A DNA stretch of 64,000 nt from Chitinophaga pinensis. Its GTDB lineage: Bacteria > Bacteroidota > Bacteroidia > NS11-12g > UBA955. The notes beneath the pieces are model-generated. The model ran no database searches. It saw only the letters and a program-made list of their open reading frames with translations, and had not been told where the DNA came from. This document shows positions 5,448-6,041 of this stretch, one piece after another. Each line of letters opens with the position of its first letter. The stretch's first letter is position 1. Position numbers and translations under genes: made by a program. The stretch covers positions 1 to 64,000 of the forward strand of contig CAMDAF010000004.1 in the NCBI GenBank assembly GCA_945888525.1, written 5' to 3'.

Positions 5448-5455
5448 TAAATTTG
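5448..5455 (+). promoter_or_regulatory. Promoter -7 box of the tRNA-Ala unit
   Basis: TAAATTTG matches TAnnTTTG exactly. Transcription from it would begin near 5460 and run through the tRNA-like remnant and then tRNA-Ala. No other promoter box is evident between here and the tRNA. Confidence 0.5.
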
Positions 5456-5487
5456 CAGTCCTATAAATCGCAAGGTTTATAACAAGT

Positions 5488-5531
5488 GGGATTAGCTCTC
5501 CCGATAGCTATCGGGAGGCAGAGCGTTTGCA
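5488..5531 (+). pseudogene. Truncated tRNA-Ala copy with a palindrome in its D-arm
   Basis: The 5' half of the intact tRNA-Ala downstream is duplicated here. GGGATTAGCTC is followed by AGAGCGTTTGCA, and the flank just upstream (ACAAG) is shared too. The eight D-loop bases of the intact gene are replaced by a 21-base segment containing the perfect palindrome CTCCCGATAGCTATCGGGAG (5498-5517). After the anticodon-stem start the similarity stops, and no anticodon, T-arm or 3' acceptor strand exists. It cannot make a functional tRNA. It would be co-transcribed with the real tRNA. Confidence 0.7.
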
Positions 5532-5566
5532 ACATTAACGCAATTCTCAATAGTTCTTAAACACAA

Positions 5567-5640
5567 GGGGGATTAGCTCAGCTGGCTAGAGCGTTTGCAT
5601 GGCATGCAAGAGGTCATCGGTTCGACTCCGATATTCTCCA
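5567..5640 (+). tRNA. tRNA-Ala (anticodon GGC)
   Basis: Acceptor strands GGGGGAT and ATTCTCC pair with two G-U wobbles. The D-arm is GCTC...GAGC. The anticodon stem TTTGC/GCAAG encloses loop ATGGCAT, giving anticodon GGC for GCC/GCU codons. The T-arm contains the standard GGTTCGACTCC. The discriminator is A, and CCA is not encoded. A Rho-independent terminator follows 16 bases later. Confidence 0.95.
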
Positions 5641-5656
5641 CAAGAACATTCAATTA

Positions 5657-5690
5657 AATGCCGATACGCAAGTGTCGGCATTTTTTGTTT
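5657..5690 (+). terminator. Rho-independent terminator after tRNA-Ala
   Basis: An 11-bp stem (AATGCCGATAC with GTGTCGGCATT, one G-U pair) closes a GCAA tetraloop and is followed by a run of Ts. Confidence 0.85.
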
Positions 5691-5729: not shown

Positions 5730-5906
5730 AAACAAAATAAAGCTTTTGAAAAAAGCGCATTTTATTGAATATTCTTGTTTGGTCCTCCCCAACCGGAGCA
5801 CGCAGTACCCCGATACTTTCGTATGTCTCGCAAAATGGCATGATGAAACAAAATAAAGCTTTTGAAAAAAGCGCATTTAATTGAATGCTCTTGTTTGGCC
5901 CTCCCC
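5730..5906. repeat. Two diverged 61-bp direct repeats 116 bp apart
   Basis: The segments 5730-5790 and 5846-5906 match at all but about four positions. Both carry the core AAAGCTTTTGAAAAAAGCGC and end in a CCTCCCC block. The reverse complement of the second copy includes ACAAGAGCATTCAATTAAAT, nearly identical to the 20 or so bases right after the tRNA-Ala discriminator base. The region therefore holds inverted copies of the tRNA's 3' flank. The 116-bp unit is not a recognised insertion sequence. Open frames crossing it on the minus strand look spurious. Confidence 0.6.
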
Positions 5907-6041
5907 ATGCTGCGGAAAAATCGTTGAATAGAACAACTGTTCAAATTTCTTTTACAATATTCTTTTAAGTTCTTTCGTTATCAATCTGTGGTATCGAGAA
6001 GTTCCAATTGCCCAAGACAACCAATAAATTTTATTCCATAT

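Follow-up and report, generated by a model that had tools for sequence, protein, structure and literature searches.

A hairpin-bearing 5' remnant of tRNA-Ala upstream of the intact gene, and similar tRNA remnants across Bacteroidota

The tRNA-Ala locus studied here occupies positions 5448-5687, on the forward strand, of the window, by which we mean the whole 64,000-nucleotide stretch of DNA that was analysed; it belongs to a 2.42-Mb Bacteroidota genome. A probable -7 promoter box, TAAATTTG (5448-5455), could serve both a tRNA remnant and the tRNA, and it agrees with what we take to be the Bacteroidota -7 consensus, TAnnTTTG. A similar TTTGCA-type box recurs in relatives immediately 5' of the tRNA or remnant. 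The remnant begins with GTGGGATTAGCTC (5486-5498), which matches the start of tRNA-Ala at 5567 and includes the 5' strands of the acceptor stem and the D-stem. Next comes an 18-nucleotide hairpin, TCCCGATAGCTATCGGGA (5499-5516), whose 7-bp stem and AGCT loop stand in place of the D-loop AGCT. The rest of the remnant, GGCAGAGCGTTTGCA (5517-5531), comprises GG, the 3' strand of the D-stem (AGAGCG), and TTTGCA, where homology stops. A gap of 35 nucleotides (5532-5566) separates the remnant from the intact tRNA-Ala(GGC) at 5567-5641, which matches Rfam RF00005 with 59.2 bits and is followed by a terminator-like hairpin and T-run (5658-5687). The gap is the spacer or leader of the intact tRNA, and contains AGTTCTTAAA (5552-5561), which presumably resembles boxA; similar motifs precede tRNAs and remnants in relatives. 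Farther 3' of the tRNA lies a direct repeat of approximately 64 bp (5731-5795 and 5848-5911).

The sequence-only reading had described a 5' remnant of tRNA-Ala, with a palindrome replacing its D-loop, ahead of an intact tRNA, and both the sequence and the Rfam match confirm this arrangement. Its further claim that the upstream flank was duplicated along with the 5' half holds for the tRNA start and the last flanking bases, in which 16 of 17 aligned positions are identical, but the leader farther upstream of this block shows only weak resemblance between remnant and tRNA. Likewise, a perfect 20-bp palindrome does exist at 5498-5517, where C5498 and G5517 extend TCCCGATAGCTATCGGGA, but what underlies it is a hairpin whose tetraloop is free to vary, not a fixed palindrome. 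The predicted fold of the 49-nucleotide remnant has no unusual stability (z -1.5); that of the 180-nucleotide precursor is unusually stable (z -3.1), as is expected for a tRNA.

The hairpin unit conforms to TCCCGAW-N4-WTCGGGA, which is 18 nucleotides long and forms a 7-bp stem closed by a tetraloop. Sequences matching TCCCGA-N6-TCGGGA occur 0 to 34 times per genome in 17 genomes of the genus, and the control pattern is found zero times. Among 75 listed genus sites, 42 depart from the consensus; pair 7:12 is kept in 38 of these 42, seven of which have A-T or G-C replacing T-A, and pair 8:11 is kept in 10. The conserved part is thus the 7-bp stem of the hairpin, and the tetraloop is free. Because the stem is kept while the tetraloop varies among the genus sites, a restriction-type double-stranded DNA palindrome is ruled out. 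Some relatives carry dispersed copies of a sister hairpin, TCCCGCA...TGCGGGA, with 29 in one genome (G296) and no control matches in all but one genome. Related hairpins occupy the anticodon arms of remnants, and other hairpin families also occupy D-loops.

The core TCCCGATAGCTATCGGGA occurs once in the window (0.02 copies expected) and nine times in the source genome, in which the reversed control has no match. Genome-wide counting had been proposed together with the idea that the palindrome is a mobile element targeting tRNA D-arms. Three of the nine copies form the D-loop of a 5' remnant immediately upstream of an intact cognate tRNA (Ala, Val and Met); the two besides tRNA-Ala adjoin tRNA-Val(TAC) and a tRNA-Met, both in remnant D-loops. 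The remaining six copies are outside tRNA sequence. Several non-tRNA hairpins of the source genome lie within degenerate CCCTA-like repeats (L004, L008, L019, L020, L022 and L024). Chance does not account for the copies, since the reversed pattern is absent from the source genome and from all 295 class genomes.

A sample of 85 copies of the 18-mer was assembled with no tRNA criterion, nine from the source genome and 76 from the class. It includes 40 added regions hand-picked from the places listed in the class scan, and, because several copies come from repeats within single genomes (for example, L189, L212 and L214/L181), it does not represent 85 independent events. Seven of the 85 are linked to a tRNA, and all seven lie in D-loops (L001, L003, L009, L179, L211, L220 and L224); the other 78 have no tRNA link. 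The D-loop position proposed earlier is therefore not accidental, occurring in three tRNAs of the source genome and 13 types elsewhere, but its exclusivity does not hold, and copies unconnected to tRNA, which had been named as evidence against the idea, make up six of nine copies in the source genome and 78 of 85 in the sample. The hairpin is a dispersed repeat that is not exclusive to tRNAs. Flanking direct repeats (score of at least 24) accompany 16 of the 85 copies, compared with 1.45% of mismatched flank pairs. Strong flanking stems (score of at least 5) are found at five of the 85 copies, compared with 1.1% expected, so any general preference for loops is weak, and general insertion into hairpin loops was set aside for its weak support outside tRNAs. 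On a 120-base scale, inverted repeats flanking the hairpin showed no average enrichment (means of 16.5 and 15.9).

Remnants of this kind are widespread. When one genome per species was scanned for TAGCTC followed by a gap of 0 to 6 and the palindrome, at least 80 loci emerged; by title, 79 of the 80 listed belong to Bacteroidota, and the remaining one is called simply a bacterium. This pattern forces the D-loop position, so specificity must rest on the other data. A tRNA was scored as matching if its first 13 nucleotides agreed with the remnant with up to 3 mismatches and it lay within 1.5 kb. Among the 106 matches listed, 85 have such a tRNA, which lies only downstream in 81, on both sides in three, and only upstream in one that is beside an N run. 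No matching tRNA accompanies 20 matches, of which several are at contig ends, about eight are not tRNA-like and two are full-length tRNA-like genes; the last match is too close to an edge for scoring. The listed matches include 13 tRNA types across 64 loci, and the longest tandem array among them, which precedes tRNA-Asn (L134), has 11 units, each of 80 bp. Because each remnant matches its own neighbouring tRNA, many independent events are implied, and the recurrence of one arrangement at many different tRNA genes indicates a recurrent genomic process as opposed to a one-off accident. Hairpin-plugged 5' tRNA remnants are a recurrent class found throughout the phylum Bacteroidota. At L075:1066-1172, a full-length tRNA-like gene immediately upstream of an intact tRNA-Met has hairpins in both its D-loop and its T-loop and apparently keeps its four stems.

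Exact copies of the hairpin are also present in viral contigs (40 copies in 37 stretches). Two of these, near position 4837 of L416 and position 3392 of L433, form the D-loop of a tRNA-Met-like gene that received no ARAGORN call. Because these two of the 40 viral copies have identical flanks and represent one tRNA-Met-like gene, phages carry it only rarely, and a phage origin was set aside.

Remnants were also surveyed at tRNAs from loci that had not been chosen for the 18-mer, with hairpins judged by eye. Upstream 5' copies accompany three of 31 tRNAs of the source genome, nine of 31 tRNAs from a tRNA-Ala search (a group that is not wholly unbiased, because the remnant formed part of the query), and none of four plus four of 15 tRNAs at GIY-YIG loci. 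After removal of one locus counted twice, these represent 15 distinct 5' remnants, all of which bear a hairpin. It occupies the D-loop in 11; in the other four, it lies in the anticodon arm and the D-loop is native. The survey left out tRNAs with less than 150 bases upstream, and missed L288, in which a pair of hairpins is inserted at nucleotide 10 of the remnant; L314, an 11-nucleotide 5' copy that has no hairpin, fell below the length needed for counting. The D-loop is thus favoured, not obligatory, given the four anticodon-arm hairpins and the insertion in L288. Remnants that have no loop hairpin are shown by these data to be nearly absent.

The consistent presence of hairpins, which belong to several families, could reflect selection on RNA folding. 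On this view, partial duplications of tRNAs would be frequent, a remnant with its native loops would compete for the 3' half of the tRNA, and only remnants inactivated by a strong hairpin would persist, with the hairpin acting as a lock regardless of where it came from. In modelled folds of 52 precursors, the correct acceptor stem has a mean probability of 0.256 with the hairpin and 0.140 with the native loop (Wilcoxon p = 0.001). However, the effect is modest: wrong pairing still averages 0.635 with the hairpin, and many loci are unchanged. Since most precursors are still predicted to mispair, the hairpin is only possibly a selected lock. This explanation also does not account for the exact 18-for-3 exchange described below or for the dispersal of the repeat elsewhere, and we consider it rather unlikely.

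Comparison of the locus among close relatives, as had been suggested, is informative about the order of events. Within the genus, tRNA-Ala lacks a remnant in G301 and G307 and has one in G300, G303, G305 and other genomes. In the remnant-free loci L287 and L304, the tRNA comes right behind the promoter box. In the filled loci L290 and L293, the remnant starts at the position that the tRNA has in L287 and L304, and the intact tRNA follows a second leader. Because the remnant holds the ancestral tRNA position and the intact tRNA lies behind a second leader, the arrangement is a product of partial tandem duplication, and to this extent the recombination product offered as an alternative in the sequence-only reading is real. 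Longer remnants often stop in the T-loop at TTCGA. The tRNAs of L033 and L307 have a downstream 3' copy with an altered T-loop, a mirror image of the 5' remnants.

The same loci bear on whether the remnant has a function. The remnant, the hairpin and the AGTTCTT motif might constitute a putative processing or antitermination element in the leader of a tRNA operon. Consistent with such an element, remnants are situated between promoter and tRNA, a motif of the AGTTCTT type precedes the tRNA, and the palindrome is identical in the source genome and G303 despite differences in the flanking remnants. However, relatives lack a remnant at the same tRNA, as do 28 of the 31 surveyed tRNAs of the source genome; neighbours differ in hairpin family; and the motif occurs where the remnant is absent (L287 and L304). 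We therefore regard a functional leader as improbable.

The remnant is most likely a tolerated scar that is transcribed within the tRNA precursor. The explanation that we put forward, with roughly even confidence, is that the remnant is a 5' tRNA-Ala pseudogene that arose by partial tandem duplication of the leader and 5' half, and whose D-loop was replaced by a dispersed, REP-like hairpin of 18 nucleotides. Partial tandem duplication would copy the tRNA leader and 5' half, and an activity that treats the hairpin as a single strand may place it in short loops or similar targets. Entry of the hairpin into a sole tRNA gene would presumably be lethal if no complete copy stood downstream, left there either by that event or by a duplication before it; such lethality would explain why survivors exhibit an upstream remnant and a downstream intact tRNA. 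Arrays might later lengthen through unequal exchange.

The size of the exchange is well defined. The D-loop sequence replaced by the hairpin is GTT, AGT or AGTT/AGCT (3-4 nucleotides), and, among the listed matches in which the net change of the D-loop is measurable (74), this is +15 in 52, +14 in 20, +16 in one and +17 in one. An empty site outside tRNAs, the one such site on which this comparison rests, also points to an 18-for-3 exchange: at the place of the hairpin in the source genome, G303 reads CCCCTA-GCC-CCTA within the same flanks, and G304 has CCCTAGCCCCTA, the same bases following an N run. The reading frame behind this intergenic site is presumably sdhB. Among the relatives compared with L020 over this stretch (L386, L387, L389-L391 and L395), several have a small ORF there and others have almost nothing; we take the product of the small ORF in the L386 group to resemble four-helix-bundle (S23/IVS) proteins.

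We tentatively propose, as a possibility that is itself on the unlikely side, an 18-nucleotide mobile hairpin that has no tag, target duplication or enzyme of its own, and that is written 18-for-3 into tRNA loops, with the 5' half re-copied, across the phylum; the small GIY-YIG nucleases linked to tRNAs may do the cutting. If so, tRNA genes of Bacteroidota repeatedly undergo an exchange of loop for hairpin, with the gene rebuilt next door. This would account for odd partial tRNAs in annotations, and it could show what the small GIY-YIG nucleases found with tRNAs in this clade do. Since the exchange has an exact size and has occurred independently many times, comparison of close strains could test the mechanism.

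Perhaps the remnants are instead scars of an element that encodes a small GIY-YIG nuclease and homes on tRNA genes, with the short form arising after loss of the nuclease gene. Of the 80 listed loci, 19 have a small GIY-YIG ORF no more than 1.5 kb from the palindrome, and the gene is between the remnant and the intact tRNA in seven (L056, L063, L070, L081, L097, L113 and L128). In the genus, 29 GIY-YIG loci (L344-L363 among them) were taken from the listed matches; 22 of these have a small GIY-YIG hit, and in 13 of the 22, a same-strand tRNA is directly upstream. The small gene matches Pfam PF01541 and no NCBIfam model. However, the source genome has no small GIY-YIG gene, most remnants have no such gene nearby, and class-wide, a tRNA is near only four of 40 GIY-centred loci. 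The numbers of hairpins and small GIY-YIG genes are also weakly correlated (rho 0.39, p 0.12, 17 genus genomes). We therefore doubt strongly that the remnants are nuclease scars, and retain the small GIY-YIG protein as a lead for the cutting enzyme. L189:1312-2516 comprises a tRNA-Met and then a GIY-YIG gene repeated three times in tandem (403 bp per copy); the hairpin interrupts every copy, splitting the domain over two frames. Matches to Y1 transposases are found in 12 of the 17 genus genomes and not in the source genome, and their number relates to hairpin number with rho 0.39 and p 0.12; Y1/RAYT enzymes as the sole mobiliser are thus unsupported.

A literature search, whose coverage excluded most subscription journals and bioRxiv, returned nothing on point for the motif or phenomenon, and the core was not printed in this context. 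Several known systems are nevertheless similar in part. REP elements are described as short dispersed hairpins with a GTAG/CGTC tetranucleotide tag and RAYT (Y1) transposases (PMC3733652). The 18-nucleotide unit is likewise a short hairpin dispersed in many copies, sometimes inside genes and in arrays, but it has a perfect, short 7-bp stem and no GTAG/CGTC tag, and the source genome has no Y1 match. Neither GTAG nor CGTC is among the 20 commonest 4-mers in the 170 flanks of the 85 copies, which exhibit only a weak YCR preference. The unit resembles MITEs in having terminal inverted repeats (its 7-bp stem), but it lacks a target-site duplication; instead, 3 nucleotides are replaced at one empty site, and D-loops lose 3-4.

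Rickettsia palindromic elements (RPEs) are characterized as in-frame insertions of about 150 bp in protein genes (PMC10969869); the class spans 100-150 bp. Both are palindromic repeats, and RPEs insert inside functional genes, whereas the present unit is 18 nucleotides and is found in the loops of tRNAs, with a partial duplication alongside. In the one coding case examined (L189, within GIY-YIG), the hairpin leaves two overlapping frames, unlike an in-frame RPE insertion. In contrast to a homing endonuclease element, the source locus has no nuclease gene, although a subset of other loci does.

The tRNA fragments associated with integrative elements usually represent the 3' part of the gene, duplicated across an island that carries an integrase. 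Such fragments (attR) are reported to remain near the intact tRNA (PMC9897764). The remnants are similarly partial tRNA copies close to an intact tRNA, but it is the 5' part that persists, the copy is upstream, the gap is tens of bases (35 bp here), and no integrase is present. The intervening sequences of rRNAs occur in the loops of helices and are likewise hairpin extensions of structural-RNA loops; here, however, the hairpin resides in remnants, and the functional RNA is spared.
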